Source of the DNA: a virus
Direction: 5' to 3' (one strand)
DNA: 29,136 bases
IMG/VR virus record: IMGVR_UViG_3300042914_003598
Coordinates: 1-29,136 of that record
Of this stretch, positions 13,801 to 26,983 are shown one piece after another. The number at the start of each line of letters is the position of its first letter. The first letter of the stretch is position 1. The translations under genes and the position numbers were made by a program. The notes below the pieces were generated by a model. It was not told the DNA's origin, searched no databases, and was given only the letters and a program-made list of their open reading frames with translations.

Positions 13801-14672
13801 TGCGCGCCGACGAGAACATCGTTGAGCGAGCGATCAACCTGCGCGGCGACTGGGAGAGCTACCTGCTCGACTCTACCTACGTCCTGCAGACGATGACGCA
13901 GCACATAGGCGACCAGATCACGTGGAAGGCGGCGTACTCGCTGGAGGTCCAGAAGCACGAAGACCCCGAGGTGGCCGAGAGGCTCGCCGTGGCCTACGCC
14001 GACAGCGTGGTGAGGCGAACCCAAGGATCGCTGCGCGCCTCAGATCGCAGCGCGGCCGAGGTGACGACGCCGATGAAGGCGCTGCTGACGAAGTTCAGCG
14101 GCTTCTTCGTCCAGATGCACAACCTGATGTCGGGGATGATGGGCGCAGTGCGTCAAGAGGCCGGCAGCCGCAACCGCCGGCTGAAGTACCTCGGCATCTA
14201 CCTCGGCGTCTGGGGCCTGCCGTTCGCGCTGTCGGCCCTGCTGATGAAAGCCATGCAGGGTGCGCTTGACGACGACGAGGACAAGGACGGCGAGTGGTGG
14301 GACGACTTGGCGTGGGATATCCTTGTCGAGTCGCAGGTGCGTCCGTTCGCGCCGCTGTTCGGCGTCGGTGGCCGCAGCGCCGAAGCAGTCGTGAACATCG
14401 TCGACGGCAGCCCCGAGACGATCGGGCGCATGCCGTCGCCGGCGCCGTTCGCGTTGCTGGAGCGCGGCGCCAAGGCCGCCCTGCGCGCGATGGACGGCAA
14501 GCCGAACAACGTCACGGGCGGCGACATCGTCAGCCTGCTGGTGCTGCTCGGCATGCCGGTGCCGCTGCCGAAGCAGGCCGGCTACGCGATCGACGTGCTG
14601 TCGGGGCAGGTGGATCCGACGGTGCGCGGAGCGGTCACGGGCCGCGCGGCCAAGGACGAGCGGCGCCGGTAG
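4890..14672 (+). CDS. Giant polyvalent virion protein with ART-like, JAMM and zincin domains
   Basis: 3260 residues; a GTG start at 4890 overlaps the previous TGA (GTGA). Regions in order: Pro/Gln-rich leader (1-40); Gly-rich hydrophobic segment (about 225-258); a block with 'GEGGEEAAQQYFEIV' near 350; an ADP-ribosyltransferase-like region (about 681-820) with R750 in 'VFRAIP' and E809 in 'HEWGY'; a block recurrent in polyvalent proteins (about 940-1405) with 'DWYT', 'ITSQNN', 'VTIDLWMRR' and 'VQAILWYPEK'; a RadC/JAMM domain (about 1520-1665) with H1615, H1617, S1625 and D1628; a likely degenerate second JAB fold (about 1690-1780); a metallopeptidase motif HEFGH (1850-1854); long charged helices; and an LPD38-like C-terminus (about 3040-3240) with a hydrophobic helix near 3100-3125. 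The position matches T7 gp16, so it is probably packaged and injected, acting in the new host. Residues about 1426-1485 are a low-complexity linker with poor coding signal that overlaps another frame. Confidence 0.8.
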   Translation: MTSTTPPVSVLPQDPQPTALPQQPVAAPVAQQEPQPDFVEQFRQLGQQQTEEQASLLLARLRATIETDPKLASEARAYGLQFGTDFRWTVENLDAMRQMARYREQQALVAGKLSQAQMALLERERDATVARDEIANLGYLERLTQTARAGYVATELGLLDNMVAQGVPLTPEQETQRDALAGEMKKLPQDDAEMGMGMPLYGLARYAGQFRVQFRESAEEATIGAATGAGVGSLVPGIGTLVGTKIGLAGGFTYGMLSTTKRSETGAAYRSYREMGYDHESSAAAAAAYGWTAMGIEALGTVASFARPLTGPVMGVVKRQALNATMDAIARPTKSKIITDAVINTALGVAGEGGEEAAQQYFEIVGQQWAQQNMIGRGLGEQAPATDFERGEAWGKIGEAAIAGAATWLIPSAGTSAYRMHWDAKRARQAADSKDTLSSVTAAAAQQKLRTDAPDLLREFLATATKGTDAETIYFDARRLVAAVDQLQEQQDRQSRLDGTPRVPIADQLERAAPGLLGRARTAVGDVTIPLADFGANLAGTPLGDELLQHGTLDPEVASPSEAAIAREQAGAQWRGAKAEQMRAEADKLAAADEAIAKSRQQVKDSYLPVLMDGAGYTRREANTVAEMVMAYVTTTAKRLNMLPHEFVAKYPLPFTRRMDAAPTQQEAGEVEAKQPLLFSRDSKYRGLHRAPSRAGGAPLHNLAVLYPDDVYSDKQVRYYGTGDNAMDRASFAVVNAAKGNPEQPVTVFRAIPTGVASSEATINAGDWVTPNREYAVLHGESALRGNYQIVQQTVRAGDLYTDANSIHEWGYSPEASEELRSRDAMGEAPASPMPQSALNVLYGDSAALPKPEKKQKKSEVAKQIKEVAFSFWKMEIDSVLLEERHEEAQQLRQQMEKLRASSGDNADVAALEQKIQELERIEQEIAKNLTDEAVAALRASNRNAADWYTTAIESALAAAAVIHPELSSDEAARKIPAFAKERNPSQAAQFVLRAALAITSQNNTVVDNTKYAEAVYKAFVETGKFVSGEYGGKKTAINNNLKLFNRLAAKLGSLERAEAFARKEFTVRSVMAEASKALGKQIKVTGLQNDIVNGSAIFGPKIGQGFLQNLLGNFFPVTIDLWMRRTWGRMTGDVVGDGITGETGSSRVVTLIQSVRAAKRKLPPELASVRLVREISKKGVVSYSLPESIATRIEEDPDFRQRIIDFALSEYAEWNGIYRLLQQPVTPEMQAEYSIATLESLSEEEKLKAFNRLVASLERQQRKIDAKYEKLSPKKQAALEAELKAMSAAEKKSLGVKGPKDLWLQREYAAAGRTVEFERREATDNVKGATTISLIQPGWVKIAKTIKANLEPIDVPSNADRRVITRVVNDVRRRLAALGLVVTNADVQAILWYPEKDLWSKLQGEDENDLNKSYDDEFLELAAQQGRGAEAQAAVDAVRARRAAGGQVGGAVGTDGRDDGRAVGPVRGRTGEAVPGSGSQGPTQLGDAGEYRSSEAAPETDTTPVPEPRDALDTVEGVARLDEFPVSTKLVRTGKRQMGAGKIDSPKALAQAMAPSIQTKAVEHFDVVLADAKGTPLAVVAGFKGGIDSVSIPWATLIHEVVRVKGAKYAWFVHNHPSGQSKLSKEDLAVAARGARLLLGSGIEPRGIMAISSDGRYEHALGDGSPVETGLVEAAARGKTVPVMERELERISDGTAVRDPLDLYERGKKLLGDDAPGVLFLDTQNRPAGFVSIDAATSRLRNSPTMGMLYRAGSAANARSVAIFNVDKFRDGYIAAANIATFFASHNVQLLDAFNTTWKGGDTQLGNVSSIVRPPGEFFAADRRTLGSFSPAANRITLYRGNNRSTWLHEFGHYWLEVTTAIVGEGNAPSELVNDLGVMFDWLGVQATATQSAVDVWRGMDLEARRKYHERFAYHFEQFLARGEAPSPELHGVFERIGAWIRDVYRGLLEQSRRLSELFREEFGEDLGVLSPEARRVMERIFAADEDIERAAVEREVRTMFQTREEALAAGLSEAAWDELQAEVWLSKERAKDELLEATDRGGRSTIERANREVAEMQKEQREVREEIAGEVAQDVANERVERARLWLRRGQVRNSNGTVTQAAEWQKLDRAAVKAMLGIGTDKPKVSEEQFAKLRGLLADGGQQPDELAAMVGYDSGDQLVRDLIEQPTATEMIDVRTDARVRREHPEFFDSDSRRNRIERAIANDMRRRVLATELLHLQRAVLTSPTMGRLADAAREAFDEANRLEDEQLRLRVQAREIEVLAVDDENYAAARDALRARANKLTDQISRLRRQESGEQTVRTIMAAVRLAAASNLSLRTVREMSPRALNAAAARMARETMQALRAGEFLRAVDLKRRQLVLTEMARQAADFQDELRVGNNLFRRFAKDDEALARTHTMPLIYLGRAVLAGHGLRDPNRDAPTGRDPMQPAHFADAMRMVREMNESLAAELERDVLPSMMRSATGDFRDLTVEEWRGLRDNMEMLWERSRAERTALVDGRREAIEWVEERLLAAPGMTPTTRTAVGVAGGGTTWDKITHELLAGKAARKRIEHWAIQMDGGMPGMWHKAVFQRIADAETRAEQLERTYVTRISRILQRLVPMLRSEPIVWQVGASRTYTFGQRGAVLTGRNGPAMAELFMAVLHAQGNLSNKEKLLLDPRREWGTQAIDPLTGERTLDSSAWDSFFADKVRDGTITKEFLDAAQEIGDVFEEMRPILQAAHVEAFGYPFEVVEPLPFRVVWPDGTTSSYRGWYMPAKADRMLVQDADLQVEDMLTEARTSLAQTPRGMTMSRDPNTFRALSLQLSLLPGHIRESARFAAMGPAIVDVQRLLNRRAIKARIDAINPQLRSRLLAPWVKNAAMLTTSLRDESDTPTQSRLMRRLDRLFTYVTMFGNVINAAQNPLQLFPASTVLIADQGASRAMGAMMSAAAHYSRNPRAMGRTVRSMSPFMNGRGNDEVRDAQKRVEKMLRADENIVERAINLRGDWESYLLDSTYVLQTMTQHIGDQITWKAAYSLEVQKHEDPEVAERLAVAYADSVVRRTQGSLRASDRSAAEVTTPMKALLTKFSGFFVQMHNLMSGMMGAVRQEAGSRNRRLKYLGIYLGVWGLPFALSALLMKAMQGALDDDEDKDGEWWDDLAWDILVESQVRPFAPLFGVGGRSAEAVVNIVDGSPETIGRMPSPAPFALLERGAKAALRAMDGKPNNVTGGDIVSLLVLLGMPVPLPKQAGYAIDVLSGQVDPTVRGAVTGRAAKDERRR
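9133..9348 (+). CDS. Possible nested +1-frame gene inside the giant polyvalent gene
   Basis: An ORF in the +1 frame relative to the giant gene runs from ATG 9133 (or ATG 9139) to TAG 9346-9348 and would encode 71 residues: a Lys/Pro/Ser-rich N-terminus and an acidic amphipathic helix ('ELTEEMTDEQLDQFADGL'). By direct count, 64 of its 71 sense codons end in G or C, against 34 of 72 overlapping codons of the giant frame. The giant frame here reads as Gly/Arg/Asp-rich low complexity. The coding signal therefore switches frame in this interval and switches back after the stop. No strong Shine-Dalgarno precedes the start (only AAGAG). It may be a nested gene, a frameshift-derived C-terminus of a shorter product, or the relic of a gene fused into the giant gene. 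Confidence 0.45.
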   Translation: MTMSSSNLPPNKGAEPKPKQPSTQSEPAAPQEGRSVAPWELTEEMTDEQLDQFADGLVRLFQEAEARDRLS

Positions 14673-15602: not shown

Positions 15603-15752
15603 ATGGACTACGACGACGACGTGACGATGGAAGACGCGCTGTACCCGTGGCTGGCGGCTGACGACCTGGCCGACCCGACGTCGGGGGCCTGGGACGGCGA
15701 GGAGCCCCAGGACGAGCAGGACGGCGAGGAGCAGGCGGAGGTGGCGCTGTGA
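15603..15752 (+). CDS. Small, highly acidic protein of unknown function
   Basis: 49 residues from ATG 15603, preceded by AAGGA about ten bases upstream. About half the residues are Asp or Glu, including an N-terminal 'MDYDDDVTMED' and a C-terminal 'DGEEPQDEQDGEEQAE'. It is the first gene of the rightward operon and its stop overlaps the next GTG start (GTGA). Longer upstream extensions of this frame run through the control region and are rejected. Small acidic phage early proteins are sometimes DNA mimics that inhibit host DNA-binding enzymes, but nothing here proves that. Confidence 0.65.
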   Translation: MDYDDDVTMEDALYPWLAADDLADPTSGAWDGEEPQDEQDGEEQAEVAL

Positions 15753-16000
15753 CGGCGATCGACCTGCCGCGCGTGCGCACGCTGCTCGACGCCTACCCTG
15801 GCCTGTGGGAGGCGGTCGAAGAGACGCGCCCCGACGGCGCCACGACGTGGGAGGTGTACGACGCGCACGATCTGGTCGCCGTCGTGACGACCGAGCGCAC
15901 GGCGCAGGCGCTCTGCGACATCCGCGACTGGCTCGCCTGTGCCGCTCGGGAGATCGAGCAGTTGCGCGCGCAGCTGCAGGCCAAGGGGGGCGCGCTGTGA
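15749..16000 (+). CDS. Small hypothetical early protein
   Basis: 83 residues with GTG start at 15749 overlapping the preceding stop. The N-terminal half is a compact mixed fold ('VRTLLDAYPGLWEAVEETRPDGATTWEVYDAHDLVAVVTTE'), and the C-terminus is a helix with heptad-like leucines ('IRDWLACAAREIEQLRAQLQAK'). It is not recognised as a known family. It lies in a chain of translationally coupled early genes (GTGA overlaps on both sides). Confidence 0.7.
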   Translation: MTAIDLPRVRTLLDAYPGLWEAVEETRPDGATTWEVYDAHDLVAVVTTERTAQALCDIRDWLACAAREIEQLRAQLQAKGGAL

Positions 16001-16242
16001 CCCACGTCTACGACGCCGCCAAGCGCCGCGCCGAGCTGATCGCCATCGTGCAGCAGTTCCGCGACGCCATCGCGTGCTACGACAGCGTGATGGAGTGCAG
16101 CAAGCTGCAGAACAGCCGCGAGATCAACGAGCACAAGCGGGGCTGGCAACTGGCGTGTCTGCACGGAACCCTCTCCGCCCTGCGCCGCGAAGCGCACAAC
16201 CTGCAACACGAACTCACCGAGATCGAAGGAAGCACCAAGTGA
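15997..16242 (+). CDS. Small helical early protein of unknown function
   Basis: 81 residues from GTG 15997, which overlaps the previous stop. The sequence is predicted nearly all helical, with two cysteines near the middle ('AIACYDSVMECSKL') and a coiled-coil-like C-terminus ('LSALRREAHNLQHELTEIEG'). Family unknown. The frame is open further upstream (to 15805), but that part lies under the previous gene in another frame and is treated as a shadow. Confidence 0.65.
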   Translation: MTHVYDAAKRRAELIAIVQQFRDAIACYDSVMECSKLQNSREINEHKRGWQLACLHGTLSALRREAHNLQHELTEIEGSTK

Positions 16243-16328
16243 CCTCCTCCCGTGACCGCGTCCGCAGCGGGGACATCGCCGCGGGCCTCTTGGCCTTCCT
16301 GCTGTTCCTCCTGTCCCTGTACCTCTGA
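16239..16328 (+). CDS. 29-residue single-pass membrane peptide
   Basis: GTG 16239 overlaps the stop of the preceding gene (GTGA) and the frame ends at TGA 16326-16328. The product has a polar, positively charged N-terminus ('MTSSRDRVRSGD') and then a hydrophobic helix ending the protein ('IAAGLLAFLLFLLSLYL'), enough for one membrane span with the N-terminus in the cytoplasm. Its place in the coupled gene chain supports translation. The role is unknown; a small membrane-active or signalling peptide is plausible. A lysis role is less likely given its early-operon position. Confidence 0.5.
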   Translation: MTSSRDRVRSGDIAAGLLAFLLFLLSLYL

Positions 16329-16360
16329 CCGACTACCCCAACCAAGAACGAGAACGACAC

Positions 16361-17110
16361 ATGGCAATCTCTCTGAAGGACATCTCTCGCAACACCACCG
16401 GCGCTCCGCGCATCGTGCTGTACGGCGTCGCCGGCATCGGCAAGACCACGCTCGCGGCCTGCGCGCCGAAGCCGATCTTCCTGCAGTGCGAGGACGGCCT
16501 CGGCCGCATCGACGCCGACGCCTTCCCGCGCGCGGCCAAGTACGACGACGTGCTGCAGCAGATGGCCGCACTCATCAAGGAAGCGAACGACTACCAGACG
16601 GTAGTGCTCGACTCGCTCGACGCACTCGAGCCGATGCTCTGGGAGCACGTCTGCACCGAGGGCGGCAAGAAGTCGATCGAGGACTTCGGCTACGGCAAGG
16701 GCTACGTCGCCGCCGCCGGCGAGTGGCGCCGGCTGCTGTCCGGCTTCGACCTGCTGCGCGAGCAGGGCAAGGCGATCATCCTGATCGCGCACTCGCAGGT
16801 GACTCGGTTCGAGAGTCCCGAGGTGGACGCCTACGACCGCTACCAGCTGCGGCTGGACAAGCGCGCCTGCGCCGTCGTCGGCGACTGGGCCGACGCGATC
16901 CTGTTCGCGAACTATCGCGTCGCCGCCGTGCAGTCTGGCGACCGCAAGCGCGGCGTGGGAGACGGCTCGCGCGTGCTCCACACGACCGAGCGCCCGGCGT
17001 TCGCCGCCAAAAACCGCTTCGGCCTGCCCGACCAGATCCTGATCCCAGCCGGCGATCCGGCTGCCGCTTGGCAGCAGATCGAGGCCTCCCTGACCGCTAC
17101 CCGCAACTGA
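16361..17110 (+). CDS. RecA-fold AAA ATPase, Sak4-like recombination protein
   Basis: 249 residues from ATG 16361. Walker A is GVAGIGKT at residues 22-29 and Walker B is VVLD at 81-84, followed by 'SLDALEPMLWEHV'. The 'IILIAHSQV' strand near residue 145 fits the RecA-fold motif at the end of the core sheet. This is the AAA_24/Sak4 type of phage nucleotide-binding protein. Known Sak4 proteins are short Rad51/RecA relatives that anneal single strands with a partner SSB. The next gene is exactly such an SSB-like protein and the gene after that a nuclease, which supports a recombination role in the cytoplasm. The upstream ribosome site is weak. Confidence 0.75.
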   Translation: MAISLKDISRNTTGAPRIVLYGVAGIGKTTLAACAPKPIFLQCEDGLGRIDADAFPRAAKYDDVLQQMAALIKEANDYQTVVLDSLDALEPMLWEHVCTEGGKKSIEDFGYGKGYVAAAGEWRRLLSGFDLLREQGKAIILIAHSQVTRFESPEVDAYDRYQLRLDKRACAVVGDWADAILFANYRVAAVQSGDRKRGVGDGSRVLHTTERPAFAAKNRFGLPDQILIPAGDPAAAWQQIEASLTATRN

Positions 17111-17134
17111 CCACTGACCACGGAGACTACGAAC

Positions 17135-17635
17135 ATGGCGAACCTCAACTTCTCGACCGACGGCATCGAACCCGCGCGCGGCGGCGGCGACTACTCGCCG
17201 CTGCCTCCCGGCTGGTACGAGGTGACGATCACCGGCGCCGACTTGCAGAAGCGTAAGCAGGGCGACGACCAGTTGCTCAAGCTGACGCTGGAGACGACCG
17301 CGCGGCACGCCGCCCACGCCGGACGCTTGGCGTGGGCGTACCTGTGCATCGACCACCCGAGCGAACAGACGCGCACGATCGCGCGCCAGCAGCTGGCTGC
17401 GGTGGCGCGGGCACTCGGCAAGTCCTTCGTCGGCGACACCGACGAGCTCGTCGGCGCCACGATCGAGGTCAAGCTGGATGCGCGTCCGGCCGACCCGTCG
17501 AAGGGCACCAAGGCGGGGAACGACGTGCGCGCCTACCGCGCCGTCGAGCGCAACGCGCCGGCGACGCCGGCACCGGCCGCGCCGGCACCGGTCGCCGCGC
17601 CGGCACGCAAGGCCACGCCGCCGTGGGGGAGGTGA
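17135..17635 (+). CDS. DUF669-type single-stranded DNA-binding protein
   Basis: 166 residues from ATG 17135, with GGAG about ten bases upstream. The start ('LNFSTDGIEP...DYSPLPPGWYEVTITGADLQ') and the beta-rich core ('LLKLTLETT...', 'WAYLCIDHPSEQTRTIARQQLAAVARALG') are typical of DUF669 phage proteins, which have an OB-like SSB role. An Ala/Pro-rich linker ('PATPAPAAPAPVAAPA') leads to the C-terminal 'PPWGR'. The flexible tail ending in aromatic residues resembles SSB interaction tails, although without the usual acidic end. It is coupled in tandem to the Sak4-like ATPase and probably loads or stimulates it. Confidence 0.75.
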   Translation: MANLNFSTDGIEPARGGGDYSPLPPGWYEVTITGADLQKRKQGDDQLLKLTLETTARHAAHAGRLAWAYLCIDHPSEQTRTIARQQLAAVARALGKSFVGDTDELVGATIEVKLDARPADPSKGTKAGNDVRAYRAVERNAPATPAPAAPAPVAAPARKATPPWGR

Positions 17636-17637
17636 GC

Positions 17638-18585
17638 GTGGGAGCTCGCCTTCCAGCGCCGCAGATGTCCGTCGTCGGCGGCATGGTCCACCACCACTAC
17701 CGTGCCACGGCAAAGGACTGGCGTCGCGACCACCTGGGCGCGAGCGTCATCGGCCACGAGTGCGACCGCTGGCTGTGGCTGTCGTTCCGCTGGGCTGCGA
17801 GCGAGGACCACGACGGGCGCATGCTGCGCTTGTTCCGCCGCGGCGAGCGCGAGGAGTCGTGGATCCTCGACGACCTCCAGTCCATCGGCGTCGAGGCCGT
17901 GGCGCTGCAGCAACTGGTGTCGGGCTGGGGCCACCTCGGCGGCAGCTGCGACGCCGTGGTCATCGGCGTTCCCGATGACCCCGAGACGAAGCACGTCGCT
18001 GAGTTCAAGACGTTCAGCAAGAAGAGCTTCGACCGGCTGGTTGACAACGGCGTGCGGCGCGAGAAGTGGCAGCACTTTGTGCAGATGCAGCTGTACATGC
18101 TGGGCCTCGGCTTGACGAAGGCGCTGTACGTCGCCGTCTGCAAGGACGACGACCGCATCCACACTGAGATCGTCGCCTTCGAGCCGAAGGTGGCGCGCGA
18201 AGCGCGGGCGCGCGCCGAGCGCATCGTCGACGCCGAGCTGCCGCCGGAGCGGCTCGACGCCGGAGCGCCGCCGTGCGTGCTGGTGAGCCGCGACGGCGAC
18301 CGCTACCCGTGCCGGTTCTTCGATGTGTGCCACGGCACCGCGCTGCCGGCGCCGTCGTGCCGCACGTGCGTCTCGTCGACGCCGCGGCCGGATGGCAGCT
18401 GGCACTGCGACTACTGGGACAACGATCTCGACGGCTACGAGCAGCGCGTTGGATGCGCGTCGTGGCTCCCGATCCCGCAGATCGGGACGCACCAAGTGCT
18501 GCGGTTCGACGAGGGCAAGCGTCGCATGACGCTGGTCGACGCGAAGGGTCAGCGGTCGACGTTCGGCACGGAGACCGCCAAGTGA
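17638..18585 (+). CDS. PD-(D/E)XK nuclease, Cas4/RecB-like exonuclease
   Basis: 315 residues from GTG 17638, two bases after the previous stop, with a strong GGGAGGTG ribosome site inside the end of the preceding gene. The start helix 'LGASVIGHECDRWLWLSFRW' matches the 'S...C.r.l.y' start of RecB/Cas4-family nucleases. The catalytic set is D105 ('GSCDAVV') and E122-x-K124 ('AEFKTF'), followed by 'HFVQMQLYMLGLGLTKALYVAVCKDDD'. Cysteines at 225, 231, 241, 244 and 257 could bind zinc or an Fe-S cluster. In phages this type resects DNA ends to make single strands for annealing proteins, consistent with the adjacent Sak4-like and SSB-like genes. Confidence 0.8.
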   Translation: MGARLPAPQMSVVGGMVHHHYRATAKDWRRDHLGASVIGHECDRWLWLSFRWAASEDHDGRMLRLFRRGEREESWILDDLQSIGVEAVALQQLVSGWGHLGGSCDAVVIGVPDDPETKHVAEFKTFSKKSFDRLVDNGVRREKWQHFVQMQLYMLGLGLTKALYVAVCKDDDRIHTEIVAFEPKVAREARARAERIVDAELPPERLDAGAPPCVLVSRDGDRYPCRFFDVCHGTALPAPSCRTCVSSTPRPDGSWHCDYWDNDLDGYEQRVGCASWLPIPQIGTHQVLRFDEGKRRMTLVDAKGQRSTFGTETAK

Positions 18586-18833
18586 CCGACATCGACAAAC
18601 TGAGCGAGGACCAAGCCGACGCCATGGTGGCGGCCATGCTCGCGGCGTGGAAACGGTCGATTGACGAAGTGGATCGGCTGCGTGCCGAGAACCAGCGGCT
18701 GCGCGCCCTGCTGCCGAAACTGCTTGCGCTATTGGAAGTGGCTCGCAAGTGGGAGGATGGTTTGGCTAGCCCGATGGAGTTGGCACTTGCCGTCCTCGAT
18801 GTTGACGAACCGCCGCACAAGAAGGAGACCTAA
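18582..18833 (+). CDS. Small coiled-coil protein with shared MTDIDKL start
   Basis: 83 residues from GTG 18582, overlapping the nuclease stop. It begins 'MTDIDKL', as do the genes at 18835 and (nearly) 19157, and continues into a helix with regular Leu/Ile spacing ('IDEVDRLRAENQRLRALLPKLLALLEVARK') that predicts a coiled coil. The acidic-basic tail 'DVDEPPHKKET' contains the ribosome site AAGGAG for the next gene. No enzyme motif. It is the first member of a mosaic small-gene family and lacks the 'RLRAIEAAA' and 'AALAAKE' blocks of later members. Confidence 0.65.
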   Translation: MTDIDKLSEDQADAMVAAMLAAWKRSIDEVDRLRAENQRLRALLPKLLALLEVARKWEDGLASPMELALAVLDVDEPPHKKET

Positions 18834-18834
18834 C

Positions 18835-19155
18835 ATGACCGACATCGACAAGCTGATTGAACGGCTCAAGGATCACGCTGAAGCTTGGGAGGTTAAGGAA
18901 ACCGATAACCGAGACGAACTCATGAATGAGCGAGTCATGGCATTCGATTGCCTGACTGCGCTTGAGGAGATTCAGCGGCTGCGCGCCATCGAGGCGGCGG
19001 CCAAAACGTGGATGGAATGGGGCGGACACTGCCCGACTTGTGCCTTTGTTCGACACCGCGAAGGGAACCCGCTATTGAGCACCGAGTTGCTGTGGGACTA
19101 CTGCGATTGCGGGTGGCACGCAGCGAGGGCCGCGCTCGCGGCAAAGGAGACCTGA
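18835..19155 (+). CDS. Mosaic-family small protein with Cys pairs
   Basis: 106 residues from ATG 18835, after AAGGAG at a good distance. It combines three family blocks: the start 'MTDIDKL', the middle block 'RLRAIEAAA' (about residues 48-56) and the C-terminal 'AALAAKE'. The unique segment between the last two carries 'CPTCAFVRHREG' and 'WDYCDCGWH', two Cys pairs that could bind zinc. The gene is visibly richer in A and T than its neighbours, suggesting separate ancestry for the unique part. Its last codons form the repeated hairpin-plus-ribosome-site cassette. Function unknown; related to Ea22-like phage proteins by layout. Confidence 0.65.
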   Translation: MTDIDKLIERLKDHAEAWEVKETDNRDELMNERVMAFDCLTALEEIQRLRAIEAAAKTWMEWGGHCPTCAFVRHREGNPLLSTELLWDYCDCGWHAARAALAAKET

Positions 19156-19156
19156 C

Positions 19157-19693
19157 ATGACCGACATCGACATCGACAAGCTGGAGACTCTGCGCGCCGC
19201 TGCGACGCAAGGGCCGTTTGTGCATGTTACGCCGCCGCCGGGATACTCGTTCGGGTTCATCGGCTACTACGTCGAGCACGAAGGTGAGCGGCTTCGTAGC
19301 CAGTTCCCTGCGTGCGACGCCGACGATGCGTACACCGTCGAACTGCTCAACGCCGCCCCCGCGCTGATCGCCGAGATCAAGCGGCTGCGAAGTGAGAACG
19401 AGAGGCTGCAAATGCAACTTGCGGCCTGCGGAGTACTGGCAAGCTGCAACACTTCAGACAGCTTGGAACGCAACCGCCAGATGCATCCAGACTTTCTGGG
19501 CGCTTCGGTTCACGCAGTTATCGAAGCGGCTCAGCGAGAGATCAAGCTGCTCGACGAGGTTAGTCATCTGCGCGCCATTGAAGCGGCGGCACGTTCGTAC
19601 ATGGCTTGCGCGAACGAGGGTCCATGGGAGAAGTTCGTTTTCAGCCTTTCCGCGCTGGAGGCCGCGCTCGCGGCGAAGGAGAACGAGAAGTGA
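19157..19693 (+). CDS. Ea22-like mosaic-family protein
   Basis: 178 residues from ATG 19157, one base after the preceding stop. The first half resembles lambda Ea22-like proteins: 'LETLRAAATQGPFVHV' (compare the family's 'L..LA.AATPGPW') followed by 'DADDAYTVELLNAAPALIAEIKRLRSENERLQMQL'. The second half has the family block 'HLRAIEAAA' and ends 'AALAAKENEK'. The N-terminus is 'MTDIDIDKL', the shared start with a duplicated 'DI' unit. Ea22-like proteins are early phage proteins of unclear function. The base composition is less G+C-rich than in the core replication genes. The stop overlaps the next GTG. Confidence 0.65.
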   Translation: MTDIDIDKLETLRAAATQGPFVHVTPPPGYSFGFIGYYVEHEGERLRSQFPACDADDAYTVELLNAAPALIAEIKRLRSENERLQMQLAACGVLASCNTSDSLERNRQMHPDFLGASVHAVIEAAQREIKLLDEVSHLRAIEAAARSYMACANEGPWEKFVFSLSALEAALAAKENEK

Positions 19694-19995
19694 CCAACCT
19701 GACCGACGAACGTCTGCGAGAGATTGCCGCCGGCAAACCGATACCCTTGGCCGTCTGCGCTGCCACGGGCGACCCGTCGTGGGCAGAGGTCCGGCAGAAC
19801 GCTGCCGAGCTTCTGGCCGCCCGCGCCGAGTTGCGTCGGCTCCGCGCCATCGAGGCGGCGGCGAGGGACGCCATGCGGCAAATCGACCGCGCACTGTGGG
19901 ACACCGGCTGTCTGCACGATCTGCGGAACGACGCAAGAATCTGCAACCTGCGCGCCGCGCTTGCGGCGAAGGAGGGCGACAATGGCAAGGCCTGA
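19690..19995 (+). CDS. Mosaic-family protein, copy 1 of duplicated C-terminus
   Basis: 101 residues from GTG 19690 (GTGA overlap). It has a unique N-terminus ('MTNLTDERLREIAAGKPIPL'), then 'ELRRLRAIEAAARDAMRQ', 'DRALWDTGCLHDLRNDAR' and 'AALAAKEGDNGKA'. From about residue 51 onward the protein is almost identical to the next gene's product (Cys/Phe, Asp/Gly changes), reflecting the 277-bp tandem duplication. The 3' end overlaps the next start by 14 bases. Function unknown. Confidence 0.65.
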   Translation: MTNLTDERLREIAAGKPIPLAVCAATGDPSWAEVRQNAAELLAARAELRRLRAIEAAARDAMRQIDRALWDTGCLHDLRNDARICNLRAALAAKEGDNGKA

Positions 19996-20424
19996 CCCGA
20001 GCACCATGTCCGACTTCCACCTGCTGGACGAGTACCTCGTCGTCTACCGCGATGGTGGTCGTCGTCACGAGGCGATCCGCAGCGAACTCGACCGCAGGTT
20101 CGCGCAAATGGAACGCCTCCGCGCCATCGAGGCGGCGGCGAGGGACGCCATGCGGCAAATCGACCGCGCACTGTGGGACACCGGCTTTCTGCACGATCTG
20201 CGGAACGACGCAAGAATCTGCAACCTGCGCGCCGCGCTCGCGGCGAAGGAGGGCGGCAATGGCAAGGCCTGACCCCATCACGATGACGACCGCGCACCTT
20301 CTTGACGAGTCCCTCATCGTCTACCGCGATGGTGGTCGTCGTCACAAGGCGATCCGCATCGAACTGGAGCGGAGGCTAGCAGAACTGGACCGGCTCCGCG
20401 CGATCGAGGCGGCGGCGAGGGAAG
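19840..20424 (+). repeat. 277-bp tandem duplication with a third partial copy
   Basis: Copy A is 19840-20116, copy B 20117-20393, and a third partial copy starts at 20394 in exact register. The first 159 bases of A and B differ at only 3 positions. The next 36 diverge, and the following 63 differ at 6. The sharp change in divergence inside one unit suggests a recent exchange or gene conversion over the first part. Confidence 0.85.
19982..20272 (+). CDS. Mosaic-family protein, hybrid middle copy of tandem duplication
   Basis: 96 residues from ATG 19982, inside the end of the previous gene, with AAGGAG 6 bases upstream of the ATG. The N-terminal half ('MARPDPSTM', 'LVVYRDGGRRHEAIR') matches the following gene, while the C-terminal half ('RLRAIEAAARDAMRQ' through 'AALAAKEGGNGKA') matches the preceding gene. 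This hybrid structure is what a tandem duplication with unequal junction produces. Function unknown. In the unit array this gene equals one 277-bp repeat. Confidence 0.65.
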   Translation: MARPDPSTMSDFHLLDEYLVVYRDGGRRHEAIRSELDRRFAQMERLRAIEAAARDAMRQIDRALWDTGFLHDLRNDARICNLRAALAAKEGGNGKA

Positions 20425-20540
20425 TCGCCGCGAACGTCGAGGACGACATCGACGCAAGGTTGCGTTACGTCGTCGTGCAGCCGTCGCGTGAGGAGTGGTC
20501 GGCATTCAAGGCCGCGCTCGCGGCGAAGGATATGCTGTGA
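20259..20540 (+). CDS. Mosaic-family protein, third copy with a different C-terminal core
   Basis: 93 residues from ATG 20259, overlapping the previous gene by 14 bases. It shares 'MARPDP', 'YRDGGRRH' and 'LDRLRAIEAAARE' with the preceding gene. Then comes a different core ('VAANVEDDIDARLRYVVVQPSREEWSAF') before the common 'AALAAKD' end. The core swap between constant blocks is a clear example of the family's modular layout. The next gene starts at GTG 20537, overlapping the stop. Confidence 0.65.
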   Translation: MARPDPITMTTAHLLDESLIVYRDGGRRHKAIRIELERRLAELDRLRAIEAAAREVAANVEDDIDARLRYVVVQPSREEWSAFKAALAAKDML

Positions 20541-20887
20541 CGTTTGTTGCCGACACCAACCTCTCGTCTTGGCAAATCGAACAAGGCGAAGAGCGGTTCA
20601 TCCGCCACCTCGACCCCGATTGCTGGATCAGCGTGCTCTACCGACTGACGGGCTTCGGGTGGCATGAGTGGGAAACCGCCATCTGCGTCCAGTCGTTCGA
20701 CGCGGCTGGGAAGCGCGACTTCGAGTGCCACATCATCGCCGGAGACCGCCGCCGCGAACTGGAGAACATGCCCAAGGAGCTACTGATGCCGTGGTACACG
20801 GCCAACATTGAGGGCAACCGAAACAGCATGGACACGCTTCGTGAGGCGTTCAAGGCCGCGCTCGCGGCGAAGGAGGGCGGCAAGTGA
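20537..20887 (+). CDS. Hypothetical protein carrying the AALAAKE C-terminal block
   Basis: 116 residues from GTG 20537 (GTGA overlap). The body is a tryptophan-rich globular domain ('SSWQIEQGEERFIRHLDPDCWISVLYRLTGFGWHEWETAICVQSF') unlike the other family members and not recognised. It ends 'LREAFKAALAAKEGGK', encoded by the same hairpin-plus-ribosome-site cassette. An unrelated gene thus appears to have captured the family's 3' cassette, which argues that the cassette itself is the mobile or selected unit. Confidence 0.65.
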   Translation: MTFVADTNLSSWQIEQGEERFIRHLDPDCWISVLYRLTGFGWHEWETAICVQSFDAAGKRDFECHIIAGDRRRELENMPKELLMPWYTANIEGNRNSMDTLREAFKAALAAKEGGK

Positions 20888-21084
20888 ACCAGATCGACAC
20901 GGAGTACCTGGAATACGTTGCGGACATGCTGAAGCAGATCCGCAACCAACTCGCCGCACTGAACCTCGGCCTCGCCGAACTGAGCCTCGGCATTGGTGCG
21001 CTGATCGGCGATAAGCAGGTGAAGAACGGCGACTGGGTGTCGCTCGACTCGCTGAAGCCCAAGCGGGCGAGGGGGAAGAAGTGA
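20884..21084 (+). CDS. Small hypothetical helical protein
   Basis: 66 residues from GTG 20884, overlapping the preceding stop and using the AAGGAG of the repeated cassette. An amphipathic helix ('VADMLKQIRNQLAALNLGLAELSLGIGALIG') leads to a short strand-rich part and a basic tail ('KPKRARGKK') that could bind nucleic acid. Not recognised as a family. Its stop overlaps the next GTG. Confidence 0.6.
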   Translation: MNQIDTEYLEYVADMLKQIRNQLAALNLGLAELSLGIGALIGDKQVKNGDWVSLDSLKPKRARGKK

Positions 21085-21293
21085 GCACCGCAGACGACAG
21101 TCTTGTGCAGGCCCTGTTCCGCGCCCTGCACGCAGCCGAGCGCAACAACATCGGTCGCATCGACATCGAGGCCGCGACCAAGGACGGCGTGGCGGGGCTG
21201 TCGATCATGGCCATGCCGACGCAGTTGGCGGACTACGTCAGCCAGCAGTTGGCAGCCTTCACCGTGATCGACATCGGGAGGGGAGGACAGTGA
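21081..21293 (+). CDS. Small hypothetical protein
   Basis: 70 residues from GTG 21081, with GTGA overlaps at both ends. A helical N-terminus ('DDSLVQALFRALHAAERNN') is followed by short strands ('GRIDIEAATKDGVAGLSIMAM', 'FTVIDIGRGG'). No motif identifies a function. The last codons (GGGAGGGGAGGACAG) contain a strong ribosome site for the next gene. Confidence 0.6.
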   Translation: MSTADDSLVQALFRALHAAERNNIGRIDIEAATKDGVAGLSIMAMPTQLADYVSQQLAAFTVIDIGRGGQ

Positions 21294-21697
21294 CCTGGGG
21301 CGACAAGTGCAAGCGCGGGCACGATCTGACCGCGGAGAACGCAATCGGCTACGACCCCAACGCCGCGCGCAGATTCTGCCGGCTGTGCCGCAACCTGCGC
21401 AAGCTGGAGTCGCTGCGCCGAGCTGCGCTGCGGCCGCGCACGTGCGCGACGTGCAAGCGACCGCTCCCACACTCAGGCACGTGGGGCTACTGCAGCACGC
21501 CGTGCGAGAAGACGGCACGCGCGCGCAACAGCTCAGGCGACAAGTCGCACGACGATGCCATGCGGACGAGCAGGCTGCTGGCGCTGTACGATGAGCTCGA
21601 GCGCGCCTCGACGTCGTGGGACCGAGCCGACATCCGAGCGCGCATTGAGGCCGTGAAGGCAACAGAGGACAAAGGCGATGACACTACAGCTACGTGA
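21290..21697 (+). CDS. Protein with two zinc-binding motifs
   Basis: 135 residues from GTG 21290. The first metal site is C7-x3-H11 with C30-x2-C33 ('CKRGHDL' and 'CRLCRN'), a layout common at the start of phage HNH-like and DNA-binding proteins. The second is C52-x2-C55 with C68-x3-C72 ('CATCKRP' and 'CSTPC'). No HNH catalytic histidine pattern is visible, so a nuclease call is not supported. The C-terminal third is helical. The end overlaps the helicase start by 20 bases, which suggests translational coupling; it may recruit or regulate the replication enzymes. Confidence 0.65.
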   Translation: MTWGDKCKRGHDLTAENAIGYDPNAARRFCRLCRNLRKLESLRRAALRPRTCATCKRPLPHSGTWGYCSTPCEKTARARNSSGDKSHDDAMRTSRLLALYDELERASTSWDRADIRARIEAVKATEDKGDDTTAT

Positions 21698-23360
21698 CTA
21701 CCAACAGGAATCTGTCGCGGCGATCTATCGGTGGTTCGGCGAGCGCGCCGACAATCCGCTGCTCGTCCTGCCCACAGGCGCCGGCAAGTCGCTCGTGATC
21801 GCGGCGTTCTGCCAGCAGGTGATGGAGCAGTGGCCCGGCCAGCGCATCCTCGTCGTGACGCACGTCAAGGAGCTCGTGCAGCAGAACCATGACCAAATGC
21901 TGCGCCTGTGGCCTGAGGCTCCGGCCGGCATCTACTCGGCCGGCATCGGGCGCCGCGAGCACGACGCTCGCATCCTGTTCGCCGGCATCCAGAGCGTCTG
22001 GAGCAAGGCCGCGAGGATCGGCTGGTGCGATCTGATCCTCGTCGACGAGGCGCACCGCATCCCGCGCAGCGGCGACGGCCAGTACCTGCGACTGCTGCAG
22101 GACATGCGCTCGATGAACGCCGACTGCAAGATGATCGGTCTGACCGCGACGCCCTACCGACTCGACAGCGGGCGGCTCGACGAGGGCGAGGACGCCATGT
22201 TCGGCGGCATCGCGCACGAGGTGGAGGTGCAAGACCTGATCGACGCCGGCTACCTGAGCAGGATCCGCAGCCGCGCGCCGGCGTCGGGCGAGATCGACAC
22301 CGGCGGCGTGCGGATCCAGAACGGCGAGTTCCAGGCCGCGGCGCTCGAGGCCGCGGCGATGGACGGCCTCGTCGTCGATGCCGCCGTCGCCGAGCTGCTC
22401 GCCAAGGGCGGCGACCGCAAGGCGTGGCTGGTCTTCGCGTGCGGCGTCCGGCACGCCGGCATGCTCGTCGAGCGCCTGCGCGCGGCCGGAGTCGAGACGG
22501 AGATGGTGGTGGCCGCGACGCCGAGGGACGAGCGCGACCGCATCGTCGCGAGCTACAAGGAGCGAACTCTGCGGTGCTTGGTCAACGTCGGCGTCTTCAC
22601 GACCGGCTTCGACGTGCCGCACGTCGACCTGATCGGCGTCCTGCGTCCGACGCTGTCGCCGGGGCTGTTCGTCCAGATGGTGGGCCGCGGCCTGAGGACG
22701 GCGGACGGCAAAACCGACTGCCTGGTGCTCGACTTCGGCGGCAACTTCTACCGCCACGGCCCGATTGATGATGTGCGCGTGCGCAAGCCAGGTCAGGGCG
22801 GCGGCGAGGCTCCGGTCAAGACGTGCAAGTCGTGCCAGGCCGTCGTTGCTGCAGCGGCGCGCGAGTGCCCCGAGTGCGGGTCGCCGTTCCCCGAGGTTCC
22901 GTCAGTGCGTCACGACGAGCGAGCCGACGAGTCGGCCGTCGCGCTGAAGGCCGAGCGGAAGACGAAGGACGTCCGCAAGCTGACCGTGAGCCGGCGCGAA
23001 CTGCGCCTACACGTGCCGCGCGATGTCCACAAGCGAGTCACGCTGCGCGTGGACTACCACTGCGGCCTGACGCGCGTCTCGCAGTGGCTGTGCTTTGGCC
23101 ACGACGAGGGTAGCCTGCCGTGGCGCAAGGCCGCGTCGTGGTGGCGCCAGCACGGCGGCATCGCGCCGGAGCCGACGACCGCAGCCGAGGCGATCTGCAG
23201 GGAGCAGCAGATCGCACCGACGATCGGAGTCACCGTCGACTTCGCCGGCGAGTGGCCAAGCGTGCTGTCGGTGCGCGCGCAATCCGAGCCGGGGGAGTGG
23301 GAGCCCGACGAAGCCCCTCGCACCGCAACAGCTGCTGACCTGGCCGACGTACCATTCTGA
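21678..23360 (+). CDS. RadD-like SF2 DNA helicase
   Basis: 560 residues, close to E. coli RadD (586). Motif I is LPTGAGKS (31-38), motif II DEAH (123-126), motif III 'LTATPYR' (about 154-160), and motif VI QMVGRGLR (333-340). After the two RecA-like domains comes a zinc ribbon, C383-x2-C386 and C397-x2-C400 ('CKSC', 'CPEC'), as in RadD. A C-terminal extension (about 430-560) contains 'VTLRVDYHCGLTRVSQWLCFGH'. RadD-type helicases act on DNA with SSB and promote recombination-intermediate processing. Here the protein may unwind replication forks together with the Sak4/SSB/nuclease set upstream. It starts inside the preceding gene at ATG 21678. Confidence 0.85.
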   Translation: MTLQLRDYQQESVAAIYRWFGERADNPLLVLPTGAGKSLVIAAFCQQVMEQWPGQRILVVTHVKELVQQNHDQMLRLWPEAPAGIYSAGIGRREHDARILFAGIQSVWSKAARIGWCDLILVDEAHRIPRSGDGQYLRLLQDMRSMNADCKMIGLTATPYRLDSGRLDEGEDAMFGGIAHEVEVQDLIDAGYLSRIRSRAPASGEIDTGGVRIQNGEFQAAALEAAAMDGLVVDAAVAELLAKGGDRKAWLVFACGVRHAGMLVERLRAAGVETEMVVAATPRDERDRIVASYKERTLRCLVNVGVFTTGFDVPHVDLIGVLRPTLSPGLFVQMVGRGLRTADGKTDCLVLDFGGNFYRHGPIDDVRVRKPGQGGGEAPVKTCKSCQAVVAAAARECPECGSPFPEVPSVRHDERADESAVALKAERKTKDVRKLTVSRRELRLHVPRDVHKRVTLRVDYHCGLTRVSQWLCFGHDEGSLPWRKAASWWRQHGGIAPEPTTAAEAICREQQIAPTIGVTVDFAGEWPSVLSVRAQSEPGEWEPDEAPRTATAADLADVPF

Positions 23361-23372
23361 GAGGAGAGGACG

Positions 23373-25577
23373 ATGACGAAGCTCGAGAGCGCGCTGGCCT
23401 ACGCTAGGCGCGGGTGGCCGGTGTTTCCGTGTGGCATGAACAAGCAGCCGCTCATCGCGAGCGGCTTCCATGCCGCGTCGTGCGACGAGGCCCGCGTGCG
23501 CGACTGGTGGGGATCCTGGCCCGACGCGCAGATCGGAATCGCGTGCGGCGCCGCCGGCATCGCCGTCGTCGACCTCGACGTCGGCAAGGGCAAGGACGGC
23601 GTGCGGACATGGCACGCGCTCGTCGACGACCACGGCCGGCACGGGTGCGGCCTCGTCGCGTCTACGCCGCGGAGCGGCAGGCACCTAGTCTACGCGATGC
23701 CTTCGCCGGCGATCGGGTGCAGGACCGACGTGCTGCCGGACAGTGGCATCGACGTCCGCGCCGAGGGCGGCTACATCCTCGCGCCCGAGCTCGAGGGCGC
23801 TGGCGGACGAGAGTGGATCGAGGGAGACCCGTTCGACCCGAGCGACCTGTGCGAGATGCCGCCGTGGGTGCGCTCGCTGCTGTGCAGATCGCGCGTCACG
23901 CCCGCCGGCTCGGTGGCGCGGGGCGGCGAGGACGGCGACGTCGTGCCGCTCATCCCCGAGATGCGCAGGCTCGTCGTCGACGCGCTCGAGCACATCGACC
24001 CCGACCCACGCGACACCTGGATCCGCGTCGGCATGGCGTTGCGCAACACCGGCGCCGGCGACGAGGCGTACCAGCTGTGGTGCGAGTGGAGCAGCAAGTC
24101 GCCGAAGTACGACGAGCAGGTGCAGCGGAGGCAGTGGGCGAGCCTGCGCCAGTGGCGGCACGACGGCACCGAGGTGGCGATCCGCACGCTGTTCTGGCTG
24201 GCCGAGCAGGCTGGATGGACGCCGAGCGTCGACGAGGCCGTGGCTGCGGAGGTGGATCTCGTGGACGCCGCCGAGCCATCGCCGGCGCAGGACACACCGC
24301 ACCAGGCTCCCGAGCCTTTCCCGCTGCGGCTGCTCGAGGAGTGCCCCGGCCTGCTCGGCGACGTCGCGCGCTGGGTCCTCGAGCACAGCATGAAGCGGCA
24401 GCCTGCGCTGGTGCTGGGCAGCACGATCGCCACACTCGGCGCCGTCGTCGGTCGCCGCGTCGCCACCTCGACCAACCTGCGCACCAACTTCTACGTCCTT
24501 GGCATCGGCGAGACGGGGTGCGGCAAGGACGCGGCGCTCAAGCTGCCGTCGCAGCTGCTCGTCGCCGCCGGGCTGCACACGCTCGTCGGGCCGTCTGAGT
24601 GGGCGTCGGCTGCCGGCCTGCGCGGTGCGCTGAAGCACGCCCCTGCCCACTGCTGCTACATCGACGAGTTCGCGAAGCTGCTGTCCCAGATGTCCGGCGA
24701 ACGCGCCCCTGCCCACCTGCAGAACATCCGCAGGTACATGCTCGAGTGCTTCAGCTCGGCGGGCTCGACGTGGCAGGCTGTCGCCTACGCGGATCGGAAG
24801 ATGCACGACCACGACCCGATGTTCGAGCCGCACCTGTGCGTCTACGGCACGGGCGTGCCGGCCGAGGCGTTCGCGGCGATGGGGCGCGGCGGCGTCGCCG
24901 ACGGCTTCCTCAACCGCATGCTGCTGATGTGGGTGGACGACCAGATGCCCGAACGCAACCGCATCGGGCGCGTCGTGCCGCCGTCGGGGCTAGTGCAGAG
25001 GCTGCAAGCGCTCGACAACGCGACGCGCCCCGCCGGCAACCTCGCCGGACGCAGCTCCGGCTACGGCGTCGACACCGGCTGCCGCACGATCCCTTGGGAG
25101 CCGGCCGCCGAGGAGTGCTGGCACGAGTTGCTCAAGGGCTACGACGAGCGCATCAAGCAGGGGCGGAAGGAAGGCAACGAGTTTGCCGACCTGTGGGTGC
25201 GGGCGGGCGAGCACGTCGCGAAGCTGGCGCTGCTCCGTTCTGTCTGCGACGACCCGACGCGCGCGATCACGACCGGGGACGTAGACTGGGCCACCCAGTT
25301 TGTGGTATGGTCGACGGAACGCACCATGCTCGCCGCCTCCGACCGCATCGCCGAGAACGACTACGAGCGCTCCCTCAAGGCCGTGCTGCGGGCGATCCGC
25401 GCCGCCGGCGCCACGGGCCTGACGTCGGGCGAGGTGCTGCGCCAGTTCCGGTGGCTGCGCTCGCGCGACCTCAAGGACGTGCTCGCGAGCCTCGAGCTGC
25501 AGGGCGACGTCGCACGCCACTCGTCGCAGACCGCCGGCCGTCCTCGACTGGCCTACGTGTCGGCGCAGCCGGCCTAG
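23373..25577 (+). CDS. Primase-polymerase/helicase fusion (AEP plus AAA-type ATPase)
   Basis: 734 residues from ATG 23373 after a strong GAGGAGAGG site. The N-terminal prim-pol domain (1-165) has 'ALAYARRGWPVFPC', the catalytic D67-x-D69 ('VVDLDVG'), H104 ('SGRHLVY') and 'RAEGGYILAP'. Residues about 190-285 match PriCT-2 ('DTWIRVGMALRNTG' to 'LFWLAEQAGW'). The ATPase domain (about 320-570) resembles DUF3987 proteins, with Walker A GETGCGKD (K385) and Walker B 'YIDEF' (D431, E432). The C-terminus (about 660-734) looks like a winged helix. Such fusions synthesise primers and unwind DNA at phage origins. The A+T-rich hairpin region directly downstream may be the origin it serves. Confidence 0.85.
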   Translation: MTKLESALAYARRGWPVFPCGMNKQPLIASGFHAASCDEARVRDWWGSWPDAQIGIACGAAGIAVVDLDVGKGKDGVRTWHALVDDHGRHGCGLVASTPRSGRHLVYAMPSPAIGCRTDVLPDSGIDVRAEGGYILAPELEGAGGREWIEGDPFDPSDLCEMPPWVRSLLCRSRVTPAGSVARGGEDGDVVPLIPEMRRLVVDALEHIDPDPRDTWIRVGMALRNTGAGDEAYQLWCEWSSKSPKYDEQVQRRQWASLRQWRHDGTEVAIRTLFWLAEQAGWTPSVDEAVAAEVDLVDAAEPSPAQDTPHQAPEPFPLRLLEECPGLLGDVARWVLEHSMKRQPALVLGSTIATLGAVVGRRVATSTNLRTNFYVLGIGETGCGKDAALKLPSQLLVAAGLHTLVGPSEWASAAGLRGALKHAPAHCCYIDEFAKLLSQMSGERAPAHLQNIRRYMLECFSSAGSTWQAVAYADRKMHDHDPMFEPHLCVYGTGVPAEAFAAMGRGGVADGFLNRMLLMWVDDQMPERNRIGRVVPPSGLVQRLQALDNATRPAGNLAGRSSGYGVDTGCRTIPWEPAAEECWHELLKGYDERIKQGRKEGNEFADLWVRAGEHVAKLALLRSVCDDPTRAITTGDVDWATQFVVWSTERTMLAASDRIAENDYERSLKAVLRAIRAAGATGLTSGEVLRQFRWLRSRDLKDVLASLELQGDVARHSSQTAGRPRLAYVSAQPA

Positions 25578-25581
25578 TCGG

Positions 25582-25735
25582 CTTCCTTCCTTCCTTCCTT
25601 CCTTCCCTGGGGGTCCCTGGTGGGAATCGGTGTGCCCTGGGAAGGAAGGAAGGAAGAGTATAGTAGTTATTATTACTTACTATTACTATACTTACATCTA
25701 CTACTTCTCTCCATCTCTAACCTTCCTTCCCTTCG
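25582..25735. other. A+T-rich region with long hairpins; candidate replication origin
   Basis: Between the primase gene and the next ORF lies a pyrimidine run of TTCC repeats (25582-25607), a purine run of GGAA repeats (25639-25658), a 64-base stretch with only 17 G/C (25657-25720) and a second CCTTCCTTCCC (25721-25731). CTTCCTTCCTTCCTTCCC (25590-25607) and its exact complement (25639-25656) form an 18-bp stem, continued by 3 bp across one T-T mismatch. Within the A+T part, AGTATAGTA (25657-25665) and TACTATACT (about 25684-25692) are inverted, with TTACT/TACTA direct repeats. Low-melting DNA plus structure beside a primase gene fits an origin; a strong transcription-termination or attenuation site is the main alternative. 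Confidence 0.5.
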
Positions 25736-25746
25736 GCGAGCGCGCC
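25735..25746. other. Small G+C hairpin before the next gene
   Basis: CGGCG (25735-25739) and CGCCG (about 25742-25747) with flanking T/A form a roughly 6-bp hairpin just before the ribosome site (GGAG) of the gene at 25764. It is short; a role in limiting translation or stabilising the transcript is possible but unproven. Confidence 0.2.
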
Positions 25747-25763
25747 GAGATTCGGAGTAGCGT

Positions 25764-26000
25764 ATGGACGACGCGGGCATCATCGAGCTGGTAGGAGCCG
25801 TCAACAAGACGATGTCGCACTACGGATGGAGGGCGGCCTACGTCGAGGGCGCGCAGACGATCGTGGCGGTGCAGCGGCGCCGCGACGGATCGCGCGTGCG
25901 AGTCACGGTCGACGCCGGCATCGCCGCACTAGCTCGCTACCCGCTGGGCTACGTGCTCGCCGAACTGAAGGCGGCTGGATGGCGCGACGGACGCGCCTAG
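25764..26000 (+). CDS. Hypothetical small protein after the origin-like region
   Basis: 78 residues from ATG 25764, with GGAG about nine bases upstream. It reads as a compact alpha/beta protein: helix ('GIIELVGAVNKTMSHYGW'), strands ('RAAYVEGAQTIVAVQRR', 'SRVRVTVDAG') and a C-terminal helix ('YVLAELKAAGWRDGRA'). Not recognised. It is the last rightward gene before three leftward genes and ends 87 bases from the convergent gene. Confidence 0.6.
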   Translation: MDDAGIIELVGAVNKTMSHYGWRAAYVEGAQTIVAVQRRRDGSRVRVTVDAGIAALARYPLGYVLAELKAAGWRDGRA

Positions 26001-26566: not shown

Positions 26567-26983
26567 TCAGACCTCCGCCGGCAGGTAGCCGACCGCGACG
26601 AGCAGGCGCCGTGCGACTCGGGCCTCGATCCATCCGTCGGCAGCGTACTCCGACTCGTCACGTTCATCGCGCGTCGCTTCGCGCACCTCGACGCAGCCGC
26701 GCTGCTCGGGGAGCTCGACCATCAGGTCGCCGGCGTCGTCGACGTACGCGCGGACTGCGACCAGGTCGGGCGACACGTAGACCCAGAACCCGGCGGCGAG
26801 CGCGTCGCGCGCATCGTCGGCGACGTAGCCGGCGGCGCGCAGCGCCTCGACGGCGCGACGGGCGTCGGCGGCGGGCAGGAGGGCGCCGGTCACCCAGGTG
26901 CTTCCTTCGTCGTGGTGGACGCCGACGTGGCCGAGGCCGAGGGTGGACAGGATCTGCGAGACGTGCGGGGCGAGGTTGGTCAT
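26567..26983 (-). CDS. Leftward operon gene 1, hypothetical protein
   Basis: 138 residues if started at the ATG at 26983 (minus strand; 'MTNLAPHVSQILSTLGLG'). This start lies downstream of a good promoter; longer in-frame starts up to 27094 would run through the promoter and operator sequences and are rejected. Two similar halves seem to alternate strands and helices ('VGVHHDEGSTWVTGALL...ARRAVEALRAAGYV' and 'FWVYVSPDLVAVRAYVDDAGDLMVELPEQ'). It ends 'VAVGYLPAEV'. No recognised family. It is the lead gene of the only multi-gene leftward unit in the window. Confidence 0.6.
   Translation of the reverse strand: MTNLAPHVSQILSTLGLGHVGVHHDEGSTWVTGALLPAADARRAVEALRAAGYVADDARDALAAGFWVYVSPDLVAVRAYVDDAGDLMVELPEQRGCVEVREATRDERDESEYAADGWIEARVARRLLVAVGYLPAEV

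Follow-up and report, generated by a model that had tools for sequence, protein, structure and literature searches.

A probable phage replication origin built from short inverted repeats around an A+T-rich island, directly after a prim-pol/helicase gene

A 29,136-nt fragment of a BPP-1-like podovirus (IMG/VR virus record IMGVR_UViG_3300042914_003598; the whole stretch is called the window here) carries, directly after a gene encoding a primase-polymerase (prim-pol)/helicase protein, clusters of TTCC/GGAA repeats on both sides of an A+T-rich island. We think it likely that this element is the phage's replication origin, at which the initiator encoded next to it would read the TTCC/GGAA repeats with its winged helix, open the island with its MCM-like part and prime synthesis with its prim-pol part. 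An earlier note on this DNA had proposed a candidate origin at the site, a reading that gains support from distant prim-pol relatives with the same layout and from the way in which their repeats co-vary with the winged helix. What was computed directly is the element and where it lies, the domains of the protein, and the association and co-change in relatives.

The element and its neighbouring initiator gene

The stop codon of the prim-pol gene ends at 25577 and the element begins 5 nt on, its repeats running from 25582, in agreement with the earlier note, which had placed it immediately after the gene. The features of the region, with their window positions, are:

23373 to 25577, plus strand: gene for the initiator candidate, a 734-aa protein of prim-pol (archaeo-eukaryotic primase, AEP), PriCT-2, DUF3987 and winged-helix parts, assigned from Pfam and a model
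25353 to 25574, plus strand: segment coding for the winged helix (prim-pol C-terminus), the probable repeat reader, from the model, Foldseek and co-variation in relatives
25582 to 25607, plus strand: left repeat cluster with six copies of TTCC; 25590-25607 is the left stem arm
25608 to 25638, no strand: stem loop of 31 nt, whose outer bases lengthen the pairing (CCCTGGG on both arms)
25639 to 25656, minus strand: inverted repeat cluster with four copies of GGAA, the right stem arm
25657 to 25720, no strand: A+T-rich island with TTACT/TACTA repeats, the probable melting site
25721 to 25734, plus strand: right repeat cluster CCTTCCTTCCCTTC, the first 11 nt of which are complementary to 25639-25649
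25764 to 26000, plus strand: small open reading frame (ORF) of 78 aa after the element, read from the sequence

The 18-bp stem described in the earlier note holds at its coordinates, 25590-25607 with 25639-25656. It is the longest perfect inverted repeat of the window (loops of up to 80 nt; the next unrelated one has 10 bp) and extends to 22 bp at 95% pairing, whereas the longest stem in 1000 dinucleotide shuffles of 25578-25763 was 12 bp. CTTCCTTCC or its complement has ten copies in the window, nine of them within 25582-25730, against a whole-window expectation of 0.09, the copies overlapping as a tetranucleotide repeat. Since a third, shorter TTCC cluster lies past the island (25721-25731), the repeats flank it, as had been claimed, in clusters at 25582-25656 and 25721-25734. 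The low-G+C stretch noted before is equally real: these 64 nt have 26.6% G+C, where the window averages 67.7% (standard deviation 6.1% for 64-nt stretches), making the island the G+C minimum of the window, with the next-lowest 64-nt stretch at 45%. Both repeats reported within it were found at three positions each (TACTA at 25678, 25684 and 25699; TTACT at 25673, 25677 and 25683), and it also holds a 9-nt inverted repeat, AGTATAGTA/TACTATACT, at 25657-25665/25684-25692. The element is real, and its stem, CTTCCTTCC clustering and island are far from chance.

The 734-aa protein matches the Pfam families Prim-Pol (7e-31), PriCT_2 (9e-19) and DUF3987 (1e-10), and found no match among PDB sequences. 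In a full-length AlphaFold model (predicted local distance difference test score, pLDDT, 84.6), residues 325-653 match MCM helicases (VIA-align Z 19.2, 267 residues, 3.4 A); MCM proteins are the best structural matches of the helicase part, and helicases of superfamily 3 (SF3) are not among the matches listed. The DUF3987 part is therefore modelled as an MCM-like AAA+ domain, a likeness of fold alone and no proof of function. Foldseek matches of the whole model also include the pRN1 primase. The last 110 residues were modelled at pLDDT 94.4 as three helices and a two-strand wing, and their Foldseek matches are mostly winged-helix DNA-binding proteins, winged-helix regulators included; the winged helix itself occupies the last ~75 residues, so that prim-pol domain and C-terminal winged helix are present in one initiator. 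The order of the MCM-like part and winged helix is that of MCM proteins.

These features suggest a mechanism in which copies of the prim-pol/helicase encoded upstream would bind the TTCC/GGAA repeats on both sides of the island through the C-terminal winged helix, the MCM-like AAA+ part would assemble at the repeats and open the A+T-rich island, by analogy the likely melting site, and the N-terminal prim-pol part would start DNA on the exposed strands. We infer each of these steps, binding, melting, priming and initiation, and likewise the role of TTCC as this phage's recognition unit. The earlier note had taken hairpin and island together as strong marks of a melting site or other control element. 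Both are real; the hairpin, which arises because the repeats lie in inverted orientation, looks like a by-product, and it may help as extruded DNA without being the defining feature.

Layout and co-change in distant relatives

Searches of GenBank phages and IMG/VR gave no relative of the site at the DNA level, and no close relative of the window's prim-pol was found. We therefore aligned prim-pols and gathered distant loci from IMG/VR and from GTDB genomes, chosen by protein only and blind to the site. The 153 full-length loci were reduced to 88 non-redundant ones at 85% identity, most of them with about 25-34% identity to the window's prim-pol; individual loci carry L numbers below. A strict signal was defined as repeat coverage of at least 40 nt together with a GC dip of at least 0.20 in the 350 nt after the gene, thresholds that were set after looking at examples, and two-letter words were filtered from the main repeat statistic. 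Downstream of the prim-pol, 46 of the 88 relatives showed this signal; the rate was 0.9% for random stretches of the same contigs and 1.2% for the regions that precede the gene.

What recurs after the stop codon is an A+T-rich island surrounded by short repeats that occur in both orientations. Of the 54 loci in which repeats and an island were both found, 44 had repeats on both sides of the island and 50 had them in both orientations. Repeats on the same strand were spaced 8-11 nt apart, roughly one helical turn, in 49 of 69 pairs compared with 81 of 265 in controls. The repeat itself differs per lineage, for instance CTTTCGTCAC in L057, AACCTGTCGAC in L062, GTGTCAC in L014, AATTAACAGCAT in L075, TTGTTGTCAT in L076 and GTGGGGACA in L078. 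A search for a single motif common to all islands returned only dominant words of TATATA/TAATAA type; the GTCA-containing words that it also brought up belong to the repeats of many loci, and a GTTACT-like element (L011, L012, L014, L023 and phage BPP-1) proved not to be general. Separately, a run of at least four G followed by TAT, or its complement, occurs in 18 of the 88 downstream regions (L014, L058, L059, L076, L078 and L099 among them) and in 2.5% of control stretches; it is absent from the window's element.

Repeats and winged helix change together. Among pairs of loci whose prim-pol bodies are 90-98.5% identical, pairs that stem from few clades and are not independent, repeats were common to 72% of the 75 pairs with winged helices at least 75% alike and to 0% of the 94 pairs with winged helices less than 60% alike. 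In the largest clade (18 loci, four winged-helix types), the excess of sharing within types was reached in 0 of 2000 permutations; in small clades it was reached in 639 and 374 of 2000, so that the test is decisive for the largest clade only. Across 1264 pairs, repeat sharing had a partial rank correlation of 0.48 with winged-helix identity when body identity was controlled for, and of 0.13 with body identity when the winged helix was controlled for. The C-terminal winged helix therefore probably reads the repeats.

In two pairs (L251/L277 and L275/L278) the changed segment is bounded: identity stands at about 76-94% as far as 250 nt ahead of the stop, drops to mostly about 30-75% over the winged helix and origin, and returns to about 82-96% past +283. 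Exchange of a block alone does not suffice for L014/L023, because the island core is kept, together with a GTGGTTACTGG-like stretch, while the repeats on both sides have changed; nor does it for L236/L239, because both arms change in step (GGTTTCGCTGG/CCAGCGAAACC versus GGTTTCCGTGG/CCACGGAAACC). The latter pair resembled an exception to the co-change, a reading that was set aside: in L236 a further winged-helix gene sits between the prim-pol and the origin, and the repeats of that locus differ in a matched way on both arms.

Small orphan proteins that match the winged helix of the prim-pol were also seen beside the predicted origin (L058:5533-5922, L088:2346-2753, L295:5602-5931 and L236:5082-5351), and may be remnants of cassette exchange or competing regulators.

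A broader idea, which we put forward tentatively and with somewhat less than even confidence, is that many phages carry a portable initiator-origin unit, in which the last ~75 residues of the prim-pol/MCM-like helicase fusion and the repeats after the gene would change their specificity jointly while the rest of the replication gene stays conserved. A single protein would then find, open, unwind and prime the origin, and the natural variants would be enough to work out a code from winged helix to repeat.

Likeness to known origins

Among the closest counterparts are the origins of phage-inducible chromosomal islands (PICIs) and Staphylococcus aureus pathogenicity islands (SaPIs), which lie directly 3' of a primase/initiator gene (pri-rep) and have two repeat sets flanking an A+T-rich region that is regarded as the site of melting; the PICI pri-ori supports plasmid maintenance, and its layout of a repeat-flanked island was termed unique to PICIs (PMC6092414). 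The window's element shares both the position immediately 3' of the initiator gene and the two repeat sets around an A+T-rich region, although its right set is short and its repeat a simple sequence. It differs in that the present layout is found in phage contigs, after a prim-pol/PriCT-2/DUF3987 protein. Because tail and internal virion protein genes are present, the window is filed as phage and not as a PICI.

Plasmid pRN1 has an essential stem-loop of ~100 bp, with a 21-nt stem and a 58-nt loop, 3' of a prim-pol/helicase/winged-helix gene (PMC4234260). The window likewise has a large stem-loop 3' of its initiator gene, with an 18-bp stem and a 31-nt loop; its helicase models as MCM-like, whereas that of pRN1 is assigned to SF3. 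Iterons were not described for pRN1, but our own reading of its stem arms suggests TGTCCA twice, inverted. The pRN1 authors saw a stem-loop 3' of the replication gene of phage BIP-1 as well, proposed the same mechanism for it and found no iterons resembling an origin there (PMC4234260). In BPP-1 (L010), a close kin of BIP-1, we find four copies of TTTGCCTCG, two of them inverted, surrounding an A+T-rich stretch at 26607-26710, ~470-570 nt after the primase stop; on our reading this may be the real origin of BPP-1, away from the stem-loop reported in BIP-1.

The RepA/origin modules of the PLE satellites of Vibrio resemble the prim-pol group in that the initiator's DNA-binding domain varies in concert with the origin repeats, and tests have shown that the two work only when matched (PMC8263062). 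They differ in their unrelated initiator (RepA_N) and in their semi-palindromic repeats of about 30 bp. Like the window, phage NrS-1 has a prim-pol with a C-terminal AAA+ ring. It is known for an 8-nt priming site, TTTGGTTA, which the window's element lacks, and the available excerpts of the NrS-1 papers describe no repeat-reading winged helix (PMC8718748, PMC7102993).

A search of the mostly non-subscription literature found no paper describing the layout for this phage prim-pol group. What is new is the breadth of the layout among phages and the co-switching of repeats and winged helix. The finding extends a layout called unique to PICIs (PMC6092414) and brings 'stem-loop' (pRN1) and 'iteron' (PICI) origins into one view, in which the stem can be inverted repeats. 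It also lets the replication origins of many uncultured phages be predicted from sequence alone, and near-identical prim-pols with differing winged helices and repeats are natural experiments on changes of initiator specificity, giving ready pairs for binding and plasmid tests.

Competing explanations and genomic context

Several points weigh against an origin. Support for it comes from comparison rather than experiment, the pairing of winged helix and repeat rests on relatives, and the closest prim-pols are ~30% identical. The strict signal is absent from 42 of the 88 relatives, some of which (e.g. L066, L082 and L022) have coding sequence directly 3' of the prim-pol. The window itself is not among the 46 positive loci because two-letter words were filtered and its TTCC unit is such a simple sequence; unfiltered, its repeat score of 55 lies below the 95th percentile of 95 and is ordinary for this GC-rich contig. 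The window's own case rests on the stem, the CTTCCTTCC clustering, the island and the position. Part of the co-change is explained by linked exchange, the winged helix being encoded next to the origin. The GC-skew turning point that the earlier note proposed as a check did not appear, the window's skew simply rising through the site, and of six relatives, four had the detrended minimum within ~4 kb of the predicted origin and two had it far away. Finally, the NrS-1-type priming site has no exact match anywhere in the window, where two one-mismatch matches outside the element are what chance predicts.

We consider it unlikely that the element is instead an operator devoid of origin function, at which the winged helix or another regulator would bind the repeats and control an island promoter for the downstream gene. 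The island ends 43 nt upstream of the start of the small ORF, orphan winged-helix genes after the element (L058, L088 and L295) or before it (L236) would suit regulators, and the co-change fits any binding role. However, the sole promoter match in the island, a weak sigma-70-like TGGAGA-17-TATAGT (9/12), is on the minus strand, facing the wrong way for the downstream gene, and a single match is close to what chance gives (mean of 0.7 in shuffled sequence); such repeats are lacking ahead of the prim-pol gene, and the PICI origin of the same layout is functional (PMC6092414). Operator and origin roles could also coexist. A transcription terminator or mRNA-protecting hairpin closing the replication operon seems very unlikely: there is a strong hairpin directly after the stop codon (RNA minimum free energy -73.8 kcal/mol, z -4.15), but folded as DNA it is no less extreme (z -6.5), no T-run follows the stem, no terminator was called at 25582-25735 on either strand, and a terminator leaves the two-sided repeats, the island and the protein-domain co-change unexplained. 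In pRN1, moreover, the putative terminator hairpin is separate and dispensable while the large stem-loop is essential (PMC4234260).

We judge it highly improbable that the site is a simple tetranucleotide expansion, or arose in assembly, next to an A+T-rich intergenic gap of the ordinary kind. The TTCC tracts are microsatellite-like, one contig alone covers the element, and a sibling contig (L326), 100% identical to the window at 15678-22085, ends before the candidate origin; against this, the tracts occur in both orientations and past the island, and distant relatives have non-simple repeats in the same layout and place. We give least credence to some other DNA site (a packaging start, an att site or a recombination hot spot). 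Hairpins and repeats mark such sites too, and no terminase gene was identified in the window, which is a fragment, but no integrase was found among the proteins scanned, and a link to prim-pol and winged helix across unrelated phage types would be unexpected for packaging or integration. An Rfam search gave only matches far below gathering scores.

The replication block of the window encodes Sak4-like, SSB-like and Cas4-like exonuclease proteins, a ResIII/DEAD helicase and the prim-pol protein, the helicase being a separate gene directly upstream of the prim-pol:

21678 to 23360, plus strand: DEAD/ResIII-type DNA helicase (phrog_16, 7e-97; Pfam ResIII, 1e-23)

The 78-aa ORF after the element has no family match in PHROGs or NCBIfam. 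The window also carries BPP-1-like tail and internal virion protein genes. A 3260-aa protein at 4890-14672 combines a RadC-like domain and a stretch resembling the ParB C-terminus with a C-terminal part matching phrog_9880, and is probably a giant internal virion protein. Its presence led us to consider a hairpin promoter of the N4 type, serving a virion RNA polymerase, which we rejected as these matches include no polymerase. Elsewhere, 19837-20145 and 20114-20422 form a direct duplication (90.6% identity over 310 nt, offset 277), beside which more short repeats lie near 20231-20898.
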